DNA from: Xanthobacter sp. NM-59
Lineage (GTDB): Bacteria; Pseudomonadota; Alphaproteobacteria; Rhizobiales; Xanthobacteraceae
Direction of reading: 5' to 3'
Assembly: GCF_021401125.1 (NCBI RefSeq)
Contig: NZ_JACBFQ010000005.1
Location: forward strand, 124,001-188,000
Length of the DNA stretch: 64,000 nt
Position 1 is the first letter of the stretch; every line of letters starts with the position of its first letter. The position numbers and the translations under genes are program-made. A model generated the notes under the pieces. It saw only the letters and a program-made list of their open reading frames with translations. It was not told where the DNA came from and searched no databases. Shown here one piece after another: positions 6,832 through 34,789 of the stretch.

Positions 6832-7632
6832 TCACACGGCGAGCATGCGCCGCATGGTCTCCACCTTCGCCCGGCTCACCGGAACCTGCGTGCCCTGCTT
6901 GTCCGCGAGGATGAGGTGCCAGGCCCCATCGGTGCGCGCCGCGCCGCGCACATGGCGCATGTTCACCACATAGCGCCGATGCACGCGCAGGAAGGAGGCG
7001 GGGTCCAGCCGCCGTTCCAGATCCGCCAGGGAGCGCGGGCAGAAGGCGGAGAAGGAGACCGTGCGCGCCTCCGCATAATGGCCCTGGGCCACCAGGCACA
7101 CCACCTCTCCCACATCGATGAGGGAGATCACAGCGCCCTTGCCGTGCATCAAGGGCAGCTTCATCAGGGGGCAAAGGGCCTGGCCCGCCTCCCCCGCCAC
7201 GGGCAGCGCTTCCATCAGCTCTTCCGCCGCTTCCGATTCGGCGCGGCCCATTGCGGGCGCATCGGTCAACGCATGGATCATCATGCAATAGCCCTCGACC
7301 GCGCCGCCTGTGCCGTCGAGACGGCTGACCTTCGCCACCAGACTGCCCATGGCGGTGGTCACCACCAGCGAGGCGGTGCCCTCCGGCCCACTCGACGCGC
7401 GGGAGATGAGCCAGCCCACCTTGTCGCGCGCCTCCTCCGGATGGAGATCCAGGATATTGGCGCCGAACAGGTCCGCCCCCGTCGGCGCCAGCAGACGCAA
7501 AGCCACTGGATTCACCGAGCGGATGGCCAATTCCGCATCCAGCATCACCACCCCGACCGGGGTCCGGTTGAGGCGGTATTCGAACGAGGGGCCGGCCTGC
7601 TGCGGCCGCGCGTCGTCCCTGCCCTTCGCCAT
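6832..7632 (-). CDS. rcoM: CO-sensing PAS-LytTR transcriptional regulator, RcoM type
   Basis: Single-component regulator of about 266 residues: an N-terminal PAS domain (about 15-125) that binds haem in RcoM proteins, a linker, and a C-terminal LytTR DNA-binding domain (about 160-262; RRLDPASFLRVHRRYVVNMRHV, VPVSRAKVETMR). Two residues that could serve as haem ligands, His64 (DLHPEEAR) and Met95 (TTAMGS), are 31 apart, close to the His74/Met104 pair of characterised RcoM. The ATG at 7632 has a strong GGGAGG seven bases upstream; a longer reading from 7767 adds a non-conserved, proline-rich leader. Same strand as cowN, its probable target. Autogenous control is possible but not visible. Confidence 0.82.
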   Translation of the reverse strand: MAKGRDDARPQQAGPSFEYRLNRTPVGVVMLDAELAIRSVNPVALRLLAPTGADLFGANILDLHPEEARDKVGWLISRASSGPEGTASLVVTTAMGSLVAKVSRLDGTGGAVEGYCMMIHALTDAPAMGRAESEAAEELMEALPVAGEAGQALCPLMKLPLMHGKGAVISLIDVGEVVCLVAQGHYAEARTVSFSAFCPRSLADLERRLDPASFLRVHRRYVVNMRHVRGAARTDGAWHLILADKQGTQVPVSRAKVETMRRMLAV

Positions 7633-7823
7633 CGCCCTGCCTCCCCCGGCGCCGCCGTCGCCCTTCGCGGAAGAGTTTAGGGCGGGGGCCGGCGCCGGCA
7701 ATAGCGAATGCAAACCTGCGTCGCCCACAGGCGCGACCACGCCGGGTTTGCCACGATGAGGCCGCATGGATACGTTACGCGCCCTGAGCCGGAACGCCGG
7801 CCCCCAGCACCTGCGGACCTTTG

Positions 7824-8600
7824 ATGACCGACATTTTCCACGAGATCCAGGAAGACCTCCGCCGCGAGCGGATGCGCAAGCTCTGGGACCGCTACGGCAT
7901 TGTCCTCATTGCCGCGGTCGTGCTCGCCATCGCCGGCGCGGCGGCCTGGAGCGGCTACCAGTACTGGCGCCAGCAGAAGGCCATTGCCGCCAGCCTCGCC
8001 CTCGACGAGGCCGTGACGCTGAACGCCGCCGGCAAGGTCGCCGAGGCCGAGGCCGCCTTCCAGGAGATCGCCAAGACCGGGCCGGACGGCTATCGCGCCA
8101 TTGCCCTCTTCCACGCAGCCAATGCCGCCGCCGCGCGCGACAAGGCCGCCGGCGTCGCCGCGTTTGATGCCATCGCCGCAGACGGGCGCCTGCCCGCTCT
8201 GGTGCGCGACATGGGGCAGCTGCGCGCAGGCCTCATCCTGCTGGACACCTCCGACCTCGCCGCCGTGAGGCAGCGCGTGGGCGACCTCGCCGCCGGCACC
8301 GGACCGCTGCGCAATCCGGCGCGCGAGATCCTGGCCCTGGCGCAGATGAAGGCCGGCGACATCGCCGCCGCCAACAAGACCGCCACAGAGATCACCGAGG
8401 ATGCGGACGCCAATGCCGGCATCCGTTCCCGCGCGGAGCTCCTGCGCCGCATTACCGCTCCCGCCGCGCCGGCCCCGGCCGCACCCGCGGCCACCCCCGA
8501 CTCGCCTGCGCCGTCCGCTGCCGGCGAGCCTGCCGCGGACGCACCGAAGGCGCCTTCGGCTCCCGCCGAGGCCCCGGCCGCTCCGGCCCCCGAAAAGTAA
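7824..8600 (+). CDS. Membrane-anchored tetratricopeptide protein (YfgM/Ancillary SecYEG translocon-like)
   Basis: 258 residues: short basic cytoplasmic N-terminus, one TM segment (about 25-47), then an alanine-rich alpha-helical periplasmic domain of the TPR_21 type, ending in about 55 residues of Ala/Pro-rich low complexity. In many proteobacteria a YfgM-like protein, BamB and Der are encoded in a row; here the TPR protein is followed by a short lipoprotein and der, so the order is kept. A role in outer-membrane protein handling follows from that family and context. ATG at 7824; a TTG directly before it is not needed. Ribosome-binding site weak. Confidence 0.75.
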   Translation: MTDIFHEIQEDLRRERMRKLWDRYGIVLIAAVVLAIAGAAAWSGYQYWRQQKAIAASLALDEAVTLNAAGKVAEAEAAFQEIAKTGPDGYRAIALFHAANAAAARDKAAGVAAFDAIAADGRLPALVRDMGQLRAGLILLDTSDLAAVRQRVGDLAAGTGPLRNPAREILALAQMKAGDIAAANKTATEITEDADANAGIRSRAELLRRITAPAAPAPAAPAATPDSPAPSAAGEPAADAPKAPSAPAEAPAAPAPEK

Positions 8601-8611
8601 GGATGCGCTCC

Positions 8612-8878
8612 ATGGGACATGCCCCTCGCCTCCTGCGCACGCTGCGCGTCGCCATCGGGCTCTCGCTCGCTCTGGCGGCGGCCGGCTGCGAAAGCCTCGA
8701 GAAGTTCAACCCCTTCGAGGAACACAAGAAGCCGATTCCCGGCGAGCGCCACGCGGTGTTCCCGGAAGGCGTGCCAGGCGTCGATTATTCGACCGGCCCC
8801 GGGCAGCCCAGCAATGCCAACGCCGTCCTCGACGCGCCGGCCACACCCCCCACCCCCGGGGTCGGCCCGTCGCGCTGA
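8612..8878 (+). CDS. Short lipoprotein resembling only the N-terminus of BamB
   Basis: 88-residue lipoprotein: basic start, hydrophobic stretch, lipobox LAAAGC, then FNPFEEHKKPIPGERHAVFPEG, which looks like the segment just after the lipidated cysteine in alphaproteobacterial BamB, and a Pro-rich tail. The WD40-like beta-propeller of BamB (about 350 residues) is absent and the gene ends cleanly before der. It occupies the place where bamB stands in related genomes. The start at 8612 has AAGGA about 8 bases upstream, overlapping the stop of the TPR gene; an ATG at 8603 is possible but sits directly on that site. Either a degraded bamB or a stand-alone lipoprotein family. Confidence 0.6.
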   Translation: MGHAPRLLRTLRVAIGLSLALAAAGCESLEKFNPFEEHKKPIPGERHAVFPEGVPGVDYSTGPGQPSNANAVLDAPATPPTPGVGPSR

Positions 8879-8962
8879 CGCGCGACGACGGCCAGCCTCA
8901 TTCACCTCTTCTTCGGGCGGCAAGTCGATCCCAGCCGCGTCGATCCCAGCCGAGCCGATTCC

Positions 8963-10330
8963 ATGAGCTTCACCCTGGCCATTGTCGGCCGGCCCAATGT
9001 GGGCAAGTCCACCCTCTTCAACCGCCTCGTGGGCAAGAAGCTCGCGCTGGTGGACGACCGCCCCGGCGTCACGCGTGACCGCCGCGAGGGCGACGGCCGG
9101 CTTGGCGACCTCACCTTCCGCATCGTCGATACGGCCGGCCTCGAGGAGGCGGACGCGGCGAGCCTTGAGGGCCGCATGCGCGCCCAGACCGAGGCTGCCA
9201 TCGGCGATGCTGACGCGCTCTTGTTCCTCATTGACGCGCGCGTGGGCCTGACGCCCACCGACCGGGCCTTCGCGGCCTTCGTACGCCGCTCCGGCAAGCC
9301 CACCATTCTCGTGGCCAACAAGAGTGAGGGGCGTGGCGGCGAAGCGGGGACCATGGAGGCCTTCGCTTTGGGTCTGGGCACGCCCGTGCCCTTCTCGGCC
9401 GAGCATGGCGAGGGACTTTCGAACCTCTACGACGCCATCTGTGACGCCCTGCCGGAACAGACCAGCCCCGAAGCGCTGGAGGAGGAAGAGGCCCAAGACG
9501 GCGAGGAGGGCGATGACGCGCCCAAGCGGCCCATCAAGGTGGCCGTTCTGGGCCGCCCGAATGCCGGCAAGAGCACGCTCATCAACCGCCTGCTGGGGGA
9601 GGACCGCCTGCTCACCGGCCCCGAGGCCGGCATCACCCGCGACTCAATCGCGGTGGAGGTGGATTTCCGCGGCACCAAGCTGGAGGTGTTCGACACCGCC
9701 GGCCTGCGCAAGCGCGCACGCATCGAGGACAAGCTGGAGAAGCTCTCCGCAGCCGATGCCCTGCGCGCCATGAAGTTCGCCGAGGTGGTGGTGGTGCTCA
9801 TCGACGCCACCCATCCCTTCGAGGAGCAGGATCTGCGCATCGCGGACCTGGTCGCCCGCGAGGGGCGCGCCGTGGTGATCGGCTACAACAAGTCGGACCT
9901 GATCGCCCGCGGCGGCCTCGCCACCCGCCTGCGCGAGGAGGCGGACCACCTGCTGCCGCAGATCAAGGGCGTGCCCATCGTGCCCCTCTCGGGCCTGACG
10001 GGGCATGGCCTCGACAAGCTGGTGGAGGCCATCGCCAAGGCCCACAAGGTGTGGAACAAGCGCGTGGCCACCAACCCGCTCAACCGCCTGCTCCAGCAGG
10101 CGGTGGACAACCACCCGCCGCCGGCTGTCTCGGGGCGGCGCGTGAAGCTGCGCTATATCACCCAGCCCAAGGCCCGGCCCCCGTCCTTTGTGCTGTTCTG
10201 CTCGCGGGCGGATGCGCTGCCGGAAAGCTATGTGCGCTACCTCACCAATGCCCTGCGCGAGGCATTCGACCTGCCCGGCGTCCCCATCCGCCTGACCCTG
10301 CGCCAGAAGGACAATCCTTACGCCGAATGA
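8963..10330 (+). CDS. der: Ribosome assembly GTPase Der (EngA)
   Basis: Essential GTPase with two tandem G domains that acts in 50S subunit maturation. 455 residues. First G domain: GRPNVGKST (8-16), DTAGL, NKSE. Second: GRPNAGKST (about 194-202), [14 protein letters not shown]. The C-terminal KH-like domain includes NPLNRLLQ and ends [13 protein letters not shown], as usual for alphaproteobacterial Der. An acidic linker ([16 protein letters not shown]) separates the G domains. It is the last gene of the TPR-lipoprotein-der group. Confidence 0.96.
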
Positions 10331-26366: not shown

Positions 26367-29300
26367 TCAGCCGCCAATCCTGGCATTGTAGACTTCCTCG
26401 CCCGGCGTGCCGGGAGCATCGAGGGAATCCAGCGTCACCGAAAGACGCGCCGTGCCCGGCGCGCTGCCGGCGAGAAGGCGACCCAGGTCGGAAACCGTCA
26501 CCATCTCGCTTGCGAACGTGCCAAGCAGATGGGTGCCGCCACCCTCCGTCTTCAACCTCAGCTGATAGATGTATCCCGGCGGGGCCGGCTCCGCCGCGAC
26601 GATCCGCAATTCCGTGCGCCCGGAGCGCTCATCGAGCCGCAGGCGCACCTCCGTCGGCGGATTGGCGACGAACACCGGCGCCAGCTCCACCCGTCGCGGC
26701 TGCGGCGCGCCGTCGCCGCGCCAATGGGCCAGCATGTCGGAACCGACGCCCAGCCCAAGCGCCACCGCCAGGGCGCCGACCGCCCAAAGCACCCGCGCAC
26801 GCCGAGAACCGCGTGGCGACGGCTCCACCGTGCGCAGGGGCGGCAGCGGCCGTTCGGCCTCATCCGCGGTCGGCGCGGCCGCCTCCCCGGCTTCGCTCCC
26901 GGCAACTCCCGCATCCTCCGGCCGGTCCGATGGCGGCTTGCCACTTTCTCTCGGCTTCGATCGCGCGCCAGCGCCGCGCGCAGGCGCCGCGTCAGGGCGT
27001 TCGACAGCAACCTCATCCTGGGTCTGAGACGCACCCAGCTCCGGGATTTCAGCCCCCTTCGTCCGCGCGGCGGTTTCCGCGACCGGTTCCGCCGTCGGGG
27101 TGGGGCCCTCCGGCGAAGGGGCAGGTGGCGCCTTCGCCTTGATCCCCGAGGACTTGACCTCAGGCTCCAAAGCCCGCTTCGCCGAGAGCGCGACGGCGGT
27201 CGGCCTGCGTTTCACCATGGCCTTGACGATCGGCCTCGCGTCCAATGGCGCTGCCAACCCATCCCTGCCGGAGACCGCCTCGGCAGCGGGTGGCGCGCGA
27301 CCGGGCACCATGGCCGGAACCCGGGACTTGGGCCCGACATTCTCTGCCCGCTCCCGCAGTTTCGGCCAAGCCGGCACCCAGCGCGGCGGCCCCTCCCCGT
27401 CGGCAGCCACCTCCCCCGCACCGGGAGGCTCGGCCCCCGCCTCCGTCTGCGCCGCGTCACCATCGCCAGCCGTGTCGGAAGCCGACGACCCAAGCTCAGC
27501 CACCGGGACAGCCCCGCCCTCCGGGAGCCGCACCTGCGCCTCCGCAGAGGCCACGGGAGCGGTGTCCTGTGGCTCGCCGGACACCTCCTGATCGGTCGCA
27601 GCAGCGGCCGGCACCGCCGCCGCTTCATCATCCCCAGAGCGAGCCGGATCGGCGCGCTCTTCAGAATGCGAGGCTTCCGTTTCACTGGGCGAGGGCTCGG
27701 GCGCGCGGCCCGAGACGGCAGCCGGCCCGGCATCCGTTGGCGCCGGAGGCTCCTCGATCGAGAGCGCAATCGGGACCTCCGCGGCATCGCCGGGAGACTC
27801 CTGATTGGCCGCCTCGACCGCGGACAGGTCAGCCGCCTGAGCGTCCCCGAAGCGCACCGCCTCATTCGCCGGCTCGCCGGAAGCAGCGGCTTCGGCCTCA
27901 ACAGGCTCTGACCCACGTTCTCCAGCCGGGGTTGCTGCCATGTCCGCCTGAAACACCATCTGGGGTGCTTCCGGCCCCGGCGCTTCAGTCGCCTCAACGG
28001 TTTCGTGGCCGCGATCCTCGTTGTCCGCTGCGACGGCGGACAGGGCGGCGGTTTGATCGTCTCCGAAGTGGGCAGCTTCATTGGCTGGTTTGCCGGAGGG
28101 CGCCGCCTCCGCCTCGACGGGTTCCGGCCTATGGTCGCCGTCCGCGATCGCAGCCTTCTCCGCCCGCATCACCACCCGGGATTCCTCGGGCTCCAGCTCT
28201 TCAGTCGCCTCGACGATTTCGCGGCGGCGATCCTCATTGGGCATCTCGACGGCGGACAGGTCGGCGCCGTCACCGTCTCCGGCAGGACTTCCCGCATTGG
28301 CCGGTTCGCCCGAAGGCGCAGCCTCAGCCTCAACAGGCTCCACCTCGCGTTCGGCATCCGCGACCGCAGCCGCTTCGACCGGCATCACCACCTGGGGCTC
28401 TTCCGACCCCGGCGCCTCAGTCGCCTCAACGGTCTCGCGAGAGCGGTCCCCATTGACCGCCTCGATGGCGGACAGGTCGGCGCCTTCACCGTCTCCGGCA
28501 CGAGCTCCCGCATTGTCCGGCCCGCCGGAAAGCGCGGTCTCGGCCTCGACGGGCTCCAGCCCGCATTTGGCGTCCGCGATCGCAGCCGCTTCGGCGTCCA
28601 TCACCACCGGACGCTTTTCCGGCCCCGGCGCTTCAGCCGGCTCGACCGTTTGGCAAGGACTGTCCTCATTGGCCACATCGAGGGCGGACAGGTCAGCGGC
28701 TCGGTCGTCCCCGAAGTGGCCGGCCTCAATAGCCGGAGTGCCGGAAGGCGCGGCCTCGGCTTCAGGAGGCTCCGCCTCGCGTTCGGCGTCCGCGATCGCA
28801 GCCGGTTCGACCGGCATCACCACCTGGGGCTCTTCCGACCCCGGCGCCTCAGTCGCCTCGACGGTTTCGGGGCGGCGGTCCGGATTGACCGCCTCGACGG
28901 CGGACAGGTCGGTGCCTTCACCGTCTCCGGAGCGAGCGGCTTGATTGGCCGGCTCGCCGGAAGGCGCGGCTTCGGCCGCAGCCGGCTTCGACCCGCGGGC
29001 GCCGTCCGCAACGGGCTCCGTCTCGGCTTCCAACAGGGCCGAGAGCGCCGGCATCGACGGCGCGGGCTTGGTCTCCCCTGGTTCGCTGGAGGGCTCCGGG
29101 CTGGCGGCCTCGACCGCGGAGAGGTCGGCGGCTTCGCCGTCGGGGGTGCGAGCCGCCGCATCTTTGGGCTCACCGACAGGCACGGCCGCGGCGTGAGCAG
29201 GCTCTGGCAGCCCGTCCACCTCCGCTGCGGAGAGGACCGGAGCGTCGCCGGCCACCAGCACAGGCGCAGCATCTCCGGTTTCGCCGGCCGGCGCGTCACC

Positions 29301-31340
29301 GGCCTCGGTGCCAACAACGTGGGCGGCAGCTTCGCCCTGCTCCGCCGAAGTAGCGGCAGCGGCGGGTTCGCTGACAGGAGCGACCTCCGTCTCAGCCGGT
29401 GTCGGCTGGTGCTCGTGGGCCGCCACGGCGGCCGCCGGAAGCGCCTGGGGCTCCTCGGCATCGAGCCCGGACATGGCGTCCCCGGGCGCGCTTGCGGGCG
29501 CAGGCTCCAGAACCGGCTCGCGGGCGGATCCGTCATCGGTGCCGGCGGCCGCCACAGTCTCGGGCCGGGCCGTGGGCTCGTCCGTCGCGGCCGCCGCCAG
29601 GGCCTCCGGAGGCGCCTGCGGCTCCTCGGCATCGAGCCCGGACATGGCGTCCCCGGGCGCGCTTGTGGGCGCATGCTCCGGAACGGGCTCACGGGCGGAT
29701 CCGTCATCGGTGCCGGCGGCCGCCACAGTCTCGGGTCGGGCCGTGGGCTCGTCCGTCGCGGCCGCCGCCAGGGCCTCCGGAGGCGCCTGCGGCTCCTCAG
29801 CATGGAGCCTGGAGATGGCGTCCCCGGGCCCGCTTGCGGGCGCGGGCGGGGCCTCCGCCGGTTCTCCCAGGGGCAAGGGCTCGGCGGCTTCACGAATAGG
29901 CGGAATGTCCGCGTCCGTCTCGTCGTCGGCGAAAAGGAGCGCCTGCAGCTCTTCCGTCAAGGCCGCGAGACCCGCGGCTGACGCGGCGGCGCTGGAATCG
30001 GGGAGTTCCGGCTCAATGTCGGCCTGCGAGGAGCCTGCCTGCGCAGCGGGCAATTCCCCTGCCCCTGGGGCAGAGGGATGCGCCGCAGCGTCCTCAGCCG
30101 GGCCGGACGGGTGCGCCTCCACGTCCATCGACAGAGGCCCGGCGGGGGCCGCCTCAATGCGGTCCTCCCAGTCCACCAAGGGCTCGGAAGCGGCGGCCTC
30201 GCCGGTTTCCACGGCGGGCACCGGCTCGGCGTCAGCAAGCGTCTCCGGCAATTGAAGCGGCGCGCCAGCCGCCTCAACGTCGCCGCGAGGCGCGGGCTCA
30301 ATGGTATCGAAGGCGGGCGTCGTATCGGCGCGGGCCGCTTCGTCCGCCCGGCCCCCTGAAGCGGCATCCGCCTCGGCACCTGCCGGCGCAGGACGGGAGC
30401 GGACAGGTGCGCCCACCGACGTCCCCTCATCAATGGGCGAGGCGCCGTCCGCATCGGTCGCCGGAGCTTCCACCGATCCTGACGCGGGCTCATCGGGGAC
30501 ATGCGGCGCCATGCCGGCGGGGGTCGGAACGGCCTCGTTGCCGTCCTCCTCCGCCAACTGCGTCACTTTGAACTCGGGCAAGACAACCGCCGGAACCAGG
30601 GTCAGCGCGGCAGTACCGGACTGCGCCTCCCCGCCCTTTTCCGCCACGGGCGACATGACCGGCGGCGCTTCGGGGGCGGTGTCTGGCGAGCGGTGGCGCG
30701 GCTCCTGGGCGCGCTCGGCGCGCACGTCCGGCGCAACGGCCTCGGGCACCGTCATATCATCGCGGATATGGGGAATGGGCGCCGCGGCTTTGCCAGCCGA
30801 GCCTCGCCCGCGCCGCGAAGACCGCTTTGGCGGCTCGGGGGGCGCGACATCTGGGGGGGCGATCTCAAGCGGCGCCTTTGGCTCCCGGGCGTCATCGCGC
30901 GGGGCCTCGCCAACCTCCGGCGGACGGGACCGCAATCCCCGCACCAACCCCTTAACGGCGTGGAACGGGGCGCTCAGCGCCTTGCCGACCCCGCCCTTGG
31001 CCGTCTCGCCGGGCTTGCGACGCCTGGTGTCCGCCTCCCCTGCGGCGGCGTCCGTCGGCTCGGCGGGCGGCAGCTCCTGGCCCTTCCGGCCCCGCCCGCG
31101 ACGGGAACCGAACATGCCGGAGCGCGAATCACTAAGGTCTTCCTCAATGCTGAGCCACAAAGCGGGCGGCGGCGCGATGGGCGTCACCAGCTCGTAGAGC
31201 GGCGCCAGCGCCCGCTCCCATGCCCGCACCCGCGCCGCGAAGGAGATGTCCACCGCCATCCGGGTGCGCACCTCCGCCCGTTCAGCGGCATCGAGGGTGC
31301 CGATGACGAATTCCGCTGCGAGGGCGTCGTCCCGCGTCAT
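26367..31340 (-). CDS. Giant RskA-type anti-sigma factor with tandem-repeat cytoplasmic region
   Basis: 1657 residues, against roughly 230-260 for usual RskA-type anti-sigma factors. Residues 1-70 form the anti-sigma domain (DDALAAEFVIGTLDAAERAE, AWERALAPLYELVTPIAPPPALW). A single TM segment lies at about 1514-1535 (VLWAVGALAVALGLGVG), followed by the periplasmic RskA domain to the end (PGYIYQLRLKTEGGGTHLLG, LSVTLDSLDAPGTP). Between them are over 1400 residues, basic at first (RRGRGRKGQ) then strongly acidic, rich in Ala, Glu, Pro, Thr, with seven 72-residue and 2.3 57-residue tandem repeats. Its ATG overlaps the sigma gene stop (ATGA), so expression is coupled. Both conserved ends are in one uninterrupted frame, which argues that it is real. 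Confidence 0.85.
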   Translation of the reverse strand: MTRDDALAAEFVIGTLDAAERAEVRTRMAVDISFAARVRAWERALAPLYELVTPIAPPPALWLSIEEDLSDSRSGMFGSRRGRGRKGQELPPAEPTDAAAGEADTRRRKPGETAKGGVGKALSAPFHAVKGLVRGLRSRPPEVGEAPRDDAREPKAPLEIAPPDVAPPEPPKRSSRRGRGSAGKAAAPIPHIRDDMTVPEAVAPDVRAERAQEPRHRSPDTAPEAPPVMSPVAEKGGEAQSGTAALTLVPAVVLPEFKVTQLAEEDGNEAVPTPAGMAPHVPDEPASGSVEAPATDADGASPIDEGTSVGAPVRSRPAPAGAEADAASGGRADEAARADTTPAFDTIEPAPRGDVEAAGAPLQLPETLADAEPVPAVETGEAAASEPLVDWEDRIEAAPAGPLSMDVEAHPSGPAEDAAAHPSAPGAGELPAAQAGSSQADIEPELPDSSAAASAAGLAALTEELQALLFADDETDADIPPIREAAEPLPLGEPAEAPPAPASGPGDAISRLHAEEPQAPPEALAAAATDEPTARPETVAAAGTDDGSAREPVPEHAPTSAPGDAMSGLDAEEPQAPPEALAAAATDEPTARPETVAAAGTDDGSAREPVLEPAPASAPGDAMSGLDAEEPQALPAAAVAAHEHQPTPAETEVAPVSEPAAAATSAEQGEAAAHVVGTEAGDAPAGETGDAAPVLVAGDAPVLSAAEVDGLPEPAHAAAVPVGEPKDAAARTPDGEAADLSAVEAASPEPSSEPGETKPAPSMPALSALLEAETEPVADGARGSKPAAAEAAPSGEPANQAARSGDGEGTDLSAVEAVNPDRRPETVEATEAPGSEEPQVVMPVEPAAIADAEREAEPPEAEAAPSGTPAIEAGHFGDDRAADLSALDVANEDSPCQTVEPAEAPGPEKRPVVMDAEAAAIADAKCGLEPVEAETALSGGPDNAGARAGDGEGADLSAIEAVNGDRSRETVEATEAPGSEEPQVVMPVEAAAVADAEREVEPVEAEAAPSGEPANAGSPAGDGDGADLSAVEMPNEDRRREIVEATEELEPEESRVVMRAEKAAIADGDHRPEPVEAEAAPSGKPANEAAHFGDDQTAALSAVAADNEDRGHETVEATEAPGPEAPQMVFQADMAATPAGERGSEPVEAEAAASGEPANEAVRFGDAQAADLSAVEAANQESPGDAAEVPIALSIEEPPAPTDAGPAAVSGRAPEPSPSETEASHSEERADPARSGDDEAAAVPAAAATDQEVSGEPQDTAPVASAEAQVRLPEGGAVPVAELGSSASDTAGDGDAAQTEAGAEPPGAGEVAADGEGPPRWVPAWPKLRERAENVGPKSRVPAMVPGRAPPAAEAVSGRDGLAAPLDARPIVKAMVKRRPTAVALSAKRALEPEVKSSGIKAKAPPAPSPEGPTPTAEPVAETAARTKGAEIPELGASQTQDEVAVERPDAAPARGAGARSKPRESGKPPSDRPEDAGVAGSEAGEAAAPTADEAERPLPPLRTVEPSPRGSRRARVLWAVGALAVALGLGVGSDMLAHWRGDGAPQPRRVELAPVFVANPPTEVRLRLDERSGRTELRIVAAEPAPPGYIYQLRLKTEGGGTHLLGTFASEMVTVSDLGRLLAGSAPGTARLSVTLDSLDAPGTPGEEVYNARIGG
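27681..29192 (-). repeat. Seven tandem 216-bp (72-residue) units inside the anti-sigma factor gene
   Basis: The DLSA codons recur at 27822, 28038, 28254, 28470, 28686, 28902 and 29118, exactly 216 bp apart each time. Unit pattern (72 residues): AEAAPSGEPAN..., a G-D-acidic patch, ADLSAVEA, then ETVEATEAPG and EPQVVM, then AAIADAERE..EPVE. Units are diverged but length is perfectly kept. They correspond to about residues 717-1220. Confidence 0.95.
29451..29838 (-). repeat. 171-bp near-identical tandem repeat inside the anti-sigma factor gene
   Basis: Copies begin at 29451, 29622 and (partial) 29793, exactly 171 bp (57 residues) apart. The first two copies differ at only about seven positions, roughly 96 percent identity, which suggests recent duplication. 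Each encodes a unit with GDAMSGLDAEEPQ followed by ALAAAATDEPTARPETV. Confidence 0.92.
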
Positions 31341-31879
31341 GCCCGGATCCCGAGCACGGTGGCGAGCTGCTGGATGCTGCGCCCCAGCCAGGCGCGCACG
31401 CCGGCGGCCGGAACGTCGAAATAGACGCCCAGCGCTTCGCGCGTCCAACCATCATAATAAGCGAGAAGCATCATGCGGCGGCGCTCTTCGGACAGGGTGC
31501 CGAGCCCGGCGAGAAGGCGCATCAGCCCCTTGCTGCGCCCGGGCAAGGCCAGCGGATCCTCCGCCGGCTGGGTGACGCGGAACGGCTCGAACGCATCAAG
31601 ACCACCATGCTCGCGGGCCACATCCAGCGCCGCGGTGCGCGCGATCACCACCATCACCGCCAGCGGGTCGTGCTGCTCCGCCAGGGTTCCGGCCTGGGAA
31701 AAGATCTGGCGGTAGGTGCGCCGCATGGCCTCGGTGGCGAGCTCCGGCCGGCGCACGAGGCGCAGAACGAGACCGTAAAGCTTGGGTGAGGACAGGGCAT
31801 AGATGCGCTCACGGGCGGCGGCGTCCGTGGCTGTCGACAGCAGGGCACGAAGCTCTCGGTGGGGCGTCACGGCCGTCAC
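31337..31879 (-). CDS. ECF-like RNA polymerase sigma factor
   Basis: About 180 residues with a sigma region 2-like part (RERIYALSSPKLYGLVLRLV, IFSQAGTLAEQHDPLAVMVVIARTAALDVAREH) and a clear region 4 helix-turn-helix (LSEERRRMMLLAYYDGWTREALGVYFDVPAAGVRAWLGR). The region 2.4 part is short, as in RskA-partnered ECF sigma factors. The start is uncertain: GTG at 31879 (GAGAAAGG close upstream) is chosen; in-frame starts up to 31981 exist. Its stop overlaps the ATG of the anti-sigma factor gene (ATGA), the usual coupling of such pairs. The target regulon is unknown. Confidence 0.78.
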   Translation of the reverse strand: MTAVTPHRELRALLSTATDAAARERIYALSSPKLYGLVLRLVRRPELATEAMRRTYRQIFSQAGTLAEQHDPLAVMVVIARTAALDVAREHGGLDAFEPFRVTQPAEDPLALPGRSKGLMRLLAGLGTLSEERRRMMLLAYYDGWTREALGVYFDVPAAGVRAWLGRSIQQLATVLGIRA

Positions 31880-32047
31880 ACCTTTCTCGCCGCCGCGCGC
31901 AAAGGCGCCTCCAGGCGGCATCCACAGCGGGATCAGCGGTTCCACGCCTGGCCGGGAGACCGACGCGCGGACACGCATCATTCAAGCGCTCGGGCCGGGC
32001 GGATGACCAGAGGAAACATCTGCACGCGCCGCAAGCAGGCCTGCGCC

Positions 32048-32443
32048 TCAGGCGCGGGAAGCGTCCGCGTGGCGCCACACGGCCCGGCGCCCGCCCATTT
32101 CGGGCTTGGCCGCGCGGTCCAGATCGTCGGCGGCCTCGGCCAGGGCCAGGTCGGCTTCCGCTTCCGAAAGGGCAGTGCTGGCGGCGGCGCGCTGGGCGGC
32201 AAGGTCTTCCACCGAGCGACGCAGGTTGTCGCGACGGCCGCGGGCGGCATGGGCCAGCGGCGGATAAGCGAAATGGGCGGGATCGGTGATACCGGAGCGC
32301 TGCTCCTCGGCCGCGATGTCGCGATCGAGATCAACGGCCATGCGCTCGAAGTCGGCGATCATGGCATCAATCTGAGCGAGACGCCGGCGGGCATCGTCGA
32401 TCTGAAACTTCTTGGCGCGAATCAAGGGCTCTCGCGACTTCAT
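32048..32443 (-). CDS. fliJ: Flagellar FliJ family protein
   Basis: 131 residues, almost entirely alpha-helical and predicted coiled coil: KSREPLIRAKKFQIDDARRRLAQIDAMIADFERMAVDLDRDIAAEEQRSGITDPAHFAYPPLAHAARGRRDNL. This matches the FliJ-like protein found beside ctrA in Rhizobiales. FliJ is a soluble stalk/chaperone of the flagellar export ATPase complex. The partner gene fliI is not in the window. Divergent from ctrA, sharing a 458-bp upstream region. The ATG at 32443 is chosen because the conserved sequence begins there. Confidence 0.8.
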   Translation of the reverse strand: MKSREPLIRAKKFQIDDARRRLAQIDAMIADFERMAVDLDRDIAAEEQRSGITDPAHFAYPPLAHAARGRRDNLRRSVEDLAAQRAAASTALSEAEADLALAEAADDLDRAAKPEMGGRRAVWRHADASRA

Positions 32444-32901
32444 CGCCGTCAACTCCGGTACGCAATGACGCAATGCGGTCCGAGCAACCCCGGACCCCTC
32501 TCAACAGGCGCCACAATGCCGGCCGGCGGTTGCCCCTTTCTTACCGCCGACCCCTCCGCTGCGGAAAATCGCAACAGATCGTCCGCCGGAAACCAATCGT
32601 TTACCGCCTTCGTTAATCATGGCTCCACGGTTCGAACGAGGCCCGCGAGGCGCCCGCTCGAACGCCGCCGGAAGGTGCTCGGCAACGGGTGGTACGGGGG
32701 CTCGGCAGGGGCAAAAAACAGTTAAGTGCTTGGTGGCGATTCGCTCTTCGCAACCGTGCACAATTGTTTTGCCACAAGGCCTTGTCCGCGAGAATCGGGG
32801 TCTGCTATCGATTCACCACACGTTACGCGAATCACCCCGACGGCCGAGCAACGGAAGTCGCCATCGCCGCCTTCCGAACAGTTGCGAGGAAAGGGATTGC
32901 C
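32444..32901. promoter_or_regulatory. Divergent fliJ/ctrA control region with clustered GANTC sites
   Basis: 458 bp without a gene. Four GANTC sites, the target of the cell-cycle methylase CcrM, lie at 32738, 32802, 32820 and 32829, three of them within 32 bp and about 70-100 bp before the ctrA start. In Caulobacter, hemimethylation of such a site controls a ctrA promoter; the same is inferred here. TTAA half-sites occur at 32613 and 32722 but not as a correctly spaced CtrA box. Confidence 0.6.
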
Positions 32902-33603
32902 ATGCGCGTCTTGCTCATCGAAGACGACAGTGCGACGGCCAAGGGCATCGAGCTGATGCTCAAGACCGAAAACTTCAACGTCTACACGACCAACTTCGGT
33001 GAGGAGGGCGTCGATCTCGGCAAGGTTTACGAGTATGATATCATTCTGCTCGACCTGAACCTGCCGGACATGTCCGGGTTTGAAGTCTTGCGCAACCTCC
33101 GCGTTGCCAAGGTGAAGACCCCCATCCTCATCCTCTCCGGCCTTGCCAATACGGAAGACAAGGTGAAGGGCTTCGGCTTCGGTGCCGATGACTACCTCAC
33201 CAAGCCCTTCCACAAGGACGAGATGGTGGCGCGCATCCACGCCATCGTCCGCCGCTCCAAGGGCCACGCTCAGTCGGTGATCCAGACCGGCGACCTCGTC
33301 GTCAACCTCGACACCAAGACGGTGGAGGTCGAAGGCGCCCGCGTGCACCTGACCGGCAAGGAATACCAGATGCTGGAGCTGCTCTCGCTCCGCAAGGGCA
33401 CGACCCTCACCAAGGAGATGTTCCTCAACCATCTCTATGGCGGCATGGACGAGCCCGAACTGAAGATCATCGACGTCTTCATCTGCAAGCTGCGCAAGAA
33501 GCTGGCCAACGCCTCTTCCGGCAAGAACTACATCGAGACGGTCTGGGGCCGCGGCTATGTGCTGCGCGAGCCGGCGGTCGGTGCCGAGCGGATGGCGGTC
33601 TAG
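32902..33603 (+). CDS. ctrA: Cell-cycle response regulator CtrA
   Basis: Master OmpR-type regulator of the alphaproteobacterial cell cycle, flagellar genes and, in some species, replication initiation. 233 residues. The receiver begins [20 protein letters not shown] and has the phospho-acceptor aspartate in [14 protein letters not shown] (Asp51); lysine in TKPFHKDEM. Winged-helix C-terminal domain with [37 protein letters not shown] and [25 protein letters not shown], nearly invariant in the family. ATG at 32902 with AGGAAAGG upstream. The phosphotransferase gene chpT is the next gene downstream (opposite strand). Confidence 0.97.
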
Positions 33604-33860: not shown

Positions 33861-33914
33861 ACTTAACGCGCCTTTTCACGCGAACCGGCATCCCCGGTGC
33901 CCGAAGACGCTCTA
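33861..33914. repeat. Dispersed intergenic repeat, copy 3, reaching into the chpT stop codon
   Basis: Sequence ACTTAACGCGCCTTTTCACG then CGAACCGGCATCC and ends GAAGACGCTCTAG. Homologous to the copies near 6.3, 49.7 and 60.0 kb. The chpT stop codon (reverse strand TAG at 33912-33914) falls inside the terminal CTCTAG of the element. Confidence 0.75.
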
Positions 33915-34619
33915 GCGCGTGGTTGCGGTGAGCGTCACCAGCTCGTCTTCGGCCGAAAAGCTGACGACCATGCCGCACGCCCGCGCCAGCAGACCGGCAT
34001 AGAACGGCTGGATCACCTGCGCCGCCAGACCGCCCTCGGGGGCGATCCCCGCCACCAGGGCCTCGGCGCCGCTGGGAATGCGCGCCTTCGGGCCGCGCGC
34101 AGCCAGCACGAAGCCCATCTGCTCACCCTCGCCCAAGGGCATCACCCGGATCACGCCACCGCGCGCCACGGAGGCCGCGGCGATCAGCATCAGGTTGAGC
34201 AGCATCTTCACCTTGTTCTTGGACTGGAACTCGCGCGGCAGCATCCATTCGATCCGCGTGCGATCATCCTCAATCATTCCGCGCGAGACCTGCTCGGCGT
34301 CCCCGAGATCCAGCTGCGCGCCCGCGGAGCCGGCGGCGCCGAAGGCCAGACGCGTGAACTGCAGGCGGGCAGAAGCCTGCCGCGCGCTCTTGGTGATGAG
34401 CTCCAGCGCCGCCTCGCGCATGTCGGCGGCGTCCTCATCCTCCAGCACCTCAATGCCGTTGACGATGGAGCCCACAGGGCTGATGACATCGTGACACACG
34501 CGCGAGCACAGCAGGGCCGCGAGATCGAGCGCGGAGATGGACACCACCGCATCCGGCGCGGTCATATCGGGCGACGTCGCGTCGGGCTGGTTCACGTCGG
34601 GGCTGTTCACGTCGGACAT
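33912..34619 (-). CDS. chpT: Histidine phosphotransferase ChpT
   Basis: 235-residue phosphotransferase that passes phosphate from CckA to CtrA and CpdR. Conserved helix ALLCSRVCHDVISPVGSIVNGIEVL holds the phospho-acceptor His43; the rest resembles a degenerate kinase ATPase fold (KMLLNLMLIAAASVARGG, GMVVSFSAEDELVTL). An odd N-terminal tail shows four five-residue repeats of the type xxPDx (NSPDV-NQPDA-TSPDM-TAPDA). ATG at 34619 with GGAAG upstream; longer frames are not conserved. Proximity to ctrA supports the assignment. Confidence 0.9.
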   Translation of the reverse strand: MSDVNSPDVNQPDATSPDMTAPDAVVSISALDLAALLCSRVCHDVISPVGSIVNGIEVLEDEDAADMREAALELITKSARQASARLQFTRLAFGAAGSAGAQLDLGDAEQVSRGMIEDDRTRIEWMLPREFQSKNKVKMLLNLMLIAAASVARGGVIRVMPLGEGEQMGFVLAARGPKARIPSGAEALVAGIAPEGGLAAQVIQPFYAGLLARACGMVVSFSAEDELVTLTATTR

Positions 34620-34789
34620 GGGGCGGGGCTTCCGGGCGTGCTGCGTTTCCGGGCCGGCAGCCGTCCGCCGGGGCGGACCCTCGGCGGCACGTGAAACCAC
34701 ATGGATGAAGGCCGGCTCTGATACACCCGGCGATGGCCCGCCCACAAGCCGCCGTCGACAGCCCACCGGCGGGCGGCTAGAAAGCGGCC

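Follow-up and report, generated by a model that had tools for sequence, protein, structure and literature searches.

The window, i.e. the whole 64,000-nucleotide stretch of Xanthobacter sp. NM-59 DNA analyzed here, harbors an unusually long anti-sigma factor gene in a locus with the order ctrA, sigma factor, anti-sigma factor, arginase (Table 1). As the earlier note had claimed, the anti-sigma gene is a single frame of 1657 residues, and its start overlaps the stop of an ECF-like sigma gene. The frame is on the minus strand, with an ATG at 31340 and a stop codon at 26367-26369, and the overlap with the sigma gene (31337-31981) amounts to four bases. The encoded protein has a computed mass of 166 kDa and a pI of 4.3. 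The frame contains no internal stop, whereas 22.7 are expected under a dinucleotide Markov model, of which 200 runs gave a minimum of 10. Both ctrA and the anti-sigma N-domain were found at the sigma locus in all 33 loci examined, with several genomes counted twice. Wherever the stretch extends far enough, arginase lies downstream in the loci of Xanthobacter, Azorhizobium, Aquabacter and related MAGs; it does not follow at L046, L049 and L051, which belong to other genera. A Pfam scan of the FliJ-like gene gave no match. ChpT is located past ctrA in the Xanthobacter loci with a long enough stretch; in ChpT as called (33912-34766), about 73 residues precede the match to the ChpT model, and the true start may be further downstream. 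A separate minus-strand frame of 468 residues (8090-9496) has approximately 160 residues in low-entropy windows.

Table 1. Positions of the genes, domains and repeats of the anti-sigma locus in the window.
Feature	Position	Strand	Basis or remark
Anti-sigma gene	26367..31340	-	1657 residues; free of internal stops; start codon overlaps the end of the sigma gene
Class I type anti-sigma domain, residues 1-76, helices H1-H4	31113..31340	-	AlphaFold model, Foldseek, dN/dS
Linker, residues 73-1514, Ala/Pro/Glu-rich, net charge -170, pI 4.2	26799..31124	-	Composition
Basic linker start, residues 73-172 (+20/-14)	30825..31124	-	Charge count
Basic-hydrophobic segment, residues 122-139	30924..30977	-	Aligned with VRRLFG-type segments of several Xanthobacter linkers
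57-residue (171-bp) tandem repeats, 2.4 copies, 93% matches	29430..29847	-	
72-residue (216-bp) tandem repeats, 5.6 copies, 72% matches	27799..29009	-	
Transmembrane helix, residues 1515-1533	26742..26798	-	Hydropathy, model helix
RskA_C-like match (PF10099, below cut-off), TM + beta-domain	26427..26786	-	Profile match, model
ECF-type sigma factor, 214 residues	31337..31981	-	Region 4 recognized, region 2 unrecognized by Pfam
FliJ-like gene, upstream of sigma	32048..32440	-	TIGR02473 22.6 bits, below cut-off 50.45
ctrA	32899..33603	+	NF045991 over cut-off; divergent from FliJ-like, sigma and anti-sigma genes

Class I anti-sigma domains (ASDI) are reported to have four helices, namely a bundle of H1-H3 and an H4 behind a flexible linker, with sigma region 4 held by helices 1-3 and region 2 by helix 4 (PMC7406223). 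Four helices were also found in the AlphaFold model of the N-domain of the window protein, at residues 3-13, 18-30, 32-51 and 59-76 (block pLDDT 81-98 for residues 1-70). The top PDB matches obtained for this domain with Foldseek were ChrR, RskA (4nqw), RslA and also MucA, all of them weak (E at least 0.37), and a PDB sequence-profile search with the same domain gave no match.

At the other end of the protein, the C-terminus was modeled as one TM helix and seven strands (mean pLDDT 77.1). Its RskA_C score of 23.2-23.3 bits is below the curated PF10099 cut-off of 29.4, no RskA_C match appeared in a Pfam scan of the whole protein at E<=1, and Foldseek with the C-terminal model returned generic beta-sandwiches, none at E<=0.001. 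The RskA-family layout, i.e. a single TM between an N-terminal anti-sigma domain and a C-terminal beta-domain, is present. Among nine relatives scanned, RskA_C was above the cut-off in six, including L043, L090 and L101, and not found in L032, L036 and L048. Synteny and the sigma clade both make the window gene orthologous to the cut-off-passing genes of L043 and L090 (L076 being the same genome as the latter), and the sigma clade alone makes it orthologous to that of L101.

The window protein resembles RskA, the anti-SigK factor of the M. tuberculosis SigK-RskA pair (4nqw), in its four-helix N-domain, its one TM and its RskA_C-like C-terminal domain, as well as in having its gene directly downstream of the sigma gene. 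It differs in its cytoplasmic linker of approximately 1440 residues and in an RskA_C similarity that stays under the curated cut-off. The M. tuberculosis protein is reported to be cleaved by an intramembrane protease and to be also able to activate its sigma factor (PMC7509140). ECF26-type pairs such as RpoE1/RpoE4 of S. meliloti (PMC3511301) are like the window pair in occurring in Rhizobiales with the sigma gene followed by the anti-sigma gene. The window pair, unlike these, adjoins ctrA and the FliJ-like gene, and none of ten neighboring frames scanned was a sulfite oxidase.

The linker between the two domains spans 1442 residues, of which 22.8% are Ala, 13.3% Pro and 12.6% Glu. It starts out basic over some hundred residues, turns acidic through its long middle and is close to neutral ahead of the TM. 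The earlier note's layout of N-domain, acidic linker, one TM and RskA-like C-domain was recovered, except that repeats make up part of the linker rather than all of it. Judging from the sequence, the linker has grown partly via 57- and 72-residue tandem duplications. The latter comprise six units of exactly 72 residues each, from residue 789 to 1220, and when they were sought across the organism's own genome both matches fell within the anti-sigma gene and none elsewhere. Low-entropy windows cover 631 residues of the 1693-residue TTG frame. The six units differ by 261, 341 and 391 changes at codon positions 1, 2 and 3, respectively. In seven stretches in the 72-residue register, pS (0.50) exceeds pN (0.35) in the real frame, as compared to 0.33 against 0.41 and 0.40 against 0.38 in the two other same-strand frames, the comparison being one among the three same-strand frames. 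This codon evidence supports translation of the long frame. The dN/dS of the repeats ranges from 0.24 to 0.86 over 16 pairs, with 14 of these at 0.43 or more.

The composition, together with low pLDDT past residue 70 in an AlphaFold model that ends at residue 150, makes it likely that the linker is disordered. The charge-hydropathy value here, 0.037, lies barely within the disordered range, and for 17 of the 22 clade proteins computed it falls within the folded range. A conserved amphipathic linker helix was also considered and rejected. In 8 of 11 Xanthobacter linkers the best amphipathic segment stood out from shuffled sequences (p<=0.05), but in the window protein and X. agilis this segment lies elsewhere. 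Residues 122-139 of the window protein are not its best-scoring segment, and AlphaFold gave no confident helix there, so that we propose no membrane binding.

The nearest pair was found in X. agilis LMG 16336, with a sigma factor 79% identical to that of the window and an anti-sigma factor of 729 residues. The two anti-sigma factors are alignable only over residues 1-137 and 1512-1656. The dN/dS between these strains is 0.09 for the N-domain (residues 1-72), 0.17 for most of the sigma factor, 0.36 for the C-terminus and 0.46 for residues 73-137, with pS of 0.46-0.66 across the regions compared. From these values, the N-domain and the sigma factor look to be under purifying selection.

Anti-sigma genes at the same locus form a series of lengths. 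They encode 263-279 residues in Azorhizobium, 451-560 in Aquabacter-type loci, and 576-732 in eight complete, unbroken Xanthobacter relatives. The Xanthobacter and Aquabacter genes share synteny and Ala/Pro/Glu-rich linkers with the window gene and differ from it in length. Within the genus, contig ends truncate the anti-sigma genes of L042, L037 and L040, and that of L034 is broken. In the latter (G011, 7036-8977), the frame stops early and the C-terminal part is found past the stop in another frame, due to either a natural break or a sequencing error. The length statistics cover 67 closed, non-duplicate rows, in which the 66 genes other than that of the window have a median of 328.5 and a maximum of 732 residues, comparison lengths that are biased upward by 40 hand-picked loci for which longer frames and new genera were favored.

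The 72 loci gave 72 N-domain matches, two of them from duplicate genomes. Eight of these rows were left out of the sigma tree, namely the two duplicates, L093, L119 and L120, which have something other than a sigma factor as the neighboring frame, L105 and L112, in which the sigma frame is too long, and L124, which is short. In the resulting tree of 64 rows, with a midpoint root used for drawing only, a branch with support 99/96 sets 24 rows apart, and the complete, unbroken anti-sigma genes of these rows range from 250 to 1657 residues, with 250-252 in L101 and L098 and 356-370 in the MAG rows. Since genes outside the clade are shorter, we infer linker growth and not shrinkage.

A single-sequence scan of the named genomes with the sigma factor gave no matches, and an alignment query of them gave 17 loci. 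Out of 14 genomes of the genus, G010 was the sole one devoid of an N-domain match, and it had no sigma match either. Five genomes of the genus, i.e. G003 (L126), G004, G006, G007 and G012, had a second match in a shorter frame of 270-350 residues. These probably represent another sigma/anti-sigma pair, e.g. L126 with 247 residues, and were excluded from the counts of the long-linker gene.

In the wider surveys, the N-domain was matched in 195 out of 248 genomes of the family, and the next longest frame among the matches listed was 952 residues from stop to stop (L041; 732 from the start). RskA_C was matched in 153 out of 297 genomes of the order, with frames of up to 683 among the matches listed, and in 124 out of 398 genomes of the phylum, with frames of 223-589 among the matches listed and without the window gene itself. 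As RskA_C is poorly matched in long-linker forms, these two surveys miss such forms and cannot exclude others. The earlier note knew of no described anti-sigma factor of this form, and in the literature searched we likewise found none with a cytoplasmic linker of approximately 1440 residues. The claim of the note is nevertheless to be taken less strictly, as the Xanthobacter and Aquabacter-type lengths make the window gene the longest case of a trend within its clade.

Nine of the ten Xanthobacter linkers tested were found to begin basic and to go on acidic (shuffle p at most 0.0125), the exception being X. tagetidis (L044), as opposed to none of six linkers from other genera. L034, L037 and L042 were not part of this test, and the nine positive linkers are close relatives and therefore non-independent. 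This charge order is kept in most Xanthobacter tested.

Gene structure, domains, the locus-wide length series and coding constraint were all computed here, and taken together they make it probable that the gene encodes a membrane-held, RskA-like anti-sigma factor of class I type, with a cytoplasmic spacer of approximately 1440 residues that is mostly acidic, probably disordered and partly tandem-duplicated. Such a spacer would tolerate, and may exploit, extreme expansion, and the length of the linker itself is probably loosely constrained. Two variants of this reading differ in what they make of the length. In the first, which we hold to be quite possible if somewhat short of an even chance, expansion is near-neutral, i.e. 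the spacer is prone to duplication and tolerated in a genome rich in GC, while its length as such serves no function. This is consistent with a linker that cannot be aligned past residue 137 even with X. agilis, with the 93% matches of the 57-residue duplication, with the mostly high dN/dS of the repeats and with the C-terminal part of L034 being beyond a stop. It is countered by the charge polarity, by repeats that hold the frame with pS above pN, and by the comparison of linker lengths called for in the earlier note, in which a short, normal-sized gene at the locus was absent from all eight Xanthobacter relatives with a complete, unbroken gene.

In the second variant, which we regard as the more doubtful, length is a selected device, with the linker acting as an acidic long-reach tether or as a degradation-timing tail that delays or shapes sigma release after cleavage. 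The basic-then-acidic order that persists despite sequence turnover argues for it, as does RsgI of Clostridium thermocellum, a protein that is also membrane-held but belongs to a different family, so that it provides an analogy of mechanism only. The N-terminal fragment of RsgI is reported to be freed by intramembrane cleavage and then degraded by ClpXP from its TM-derived end, and the cytoplasmic domain can affect this degradation (PMC12203970). The same study speaks against a strong version of the device, because degradation proceeded from acidic and from Gly/Ala tails of low complexity and was poor with the twelve-glycine tail alone (PMC12203970). By analogy with these results, a permanent or strong block would be unlikely here, while a delay or an altered reach would be possible.

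A different proposition, which appears improbable, is that the sigma partner no longer works as an ordinary sigma factor and that the pair has taken on another role, e.g. that of an adaptor held at the membrane, in which the linker would be a scaffold. Region 2 has no PF04542 match at E<=1 in Pfam scans of the sigma factor of either the window or X. agilis, and for this reason the sigma activity of the partner is not certain. Region 2 is also below the cut-off of 24 bits in L036 (15.9 bits) and L045 (12.2), as opposed to 57.8 and 63.4 bits in the canonical-type L046 and L050. On the other hand, L042, L043 and L044 of the same clade narrowly pass this cut-off (25.3-27.7 bits), region 4 of the window sigma factor passes its own (PF08281, 27.6 bits against 25.7), whole-length ECF models match this sigma factor, though below their cut-offs, and the low dN/dS of the sigma factor and the N-domain argues for retained function. 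The poor conservation of the linker sequence argues against a scaffold that relies on conserved binding sites, and not against a role based on length or charge. We also considered and rejected a connection between linker length and region-2 decay, as the low scores, judged by eye, are those of a single clade, plus L125 from outside, and show no gradient within that clade; the comparison profile, being built from canonical rows, was also counted against such a connection.

Lastly, the worry of the earlier note about an artefact in the repeats, and likewise the idea that repeats were wrongly joined or that the frame is open by chance, can be put aside as highly improbable: GC-rich sequence does yield spurious long frames in the window, the other strand having one of 658 codons, but the expected 23 or so stops are absent, the longest exact repeat in the gene is approximately 60 bp, so that short reads could resolve its repeats, and the same architecture recurs in relatives on other contigs. 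We regard the long anti-sigma frame as real.

For the membrane-held RskA-like factor that we favor, the N-domain would clamp the neighboring sigma factor, while the periplasmic domain and the TM would control regulated intramembrane proteolysis. Before cleavage, the linker could act as a flexible spacer, leaving the complex attached to the membrane yet roaming over tens of nanometres, as polymer scaling suggests. After cleavage in the TM, the long tail would be exposed to cytoplasmic proteases, e.g. ClpXP, as a place to engage, and the protease would have to traverse it before reaching the sigma-binding domain. More speculatively still, and on balance unlikely, the basic segment and the more than 1000 acidic, disordered residues may set the place of the sigma complex or the speed of release, with the lineage tuning release by the number of tandem repeats.

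While the RskA-like architecture is already known, what is new here is the extreme, at 1657 residues, of a clade-wide lengthening of RskA-like linkers. The orthologues of this syntenic locus, with lengths between approximately 260 and 1657 residues, form a natural series suited to testing how the length and charge of a tether relate to the timing and place of sigma release, and equally the alternative that long spacers are merely tolerated.
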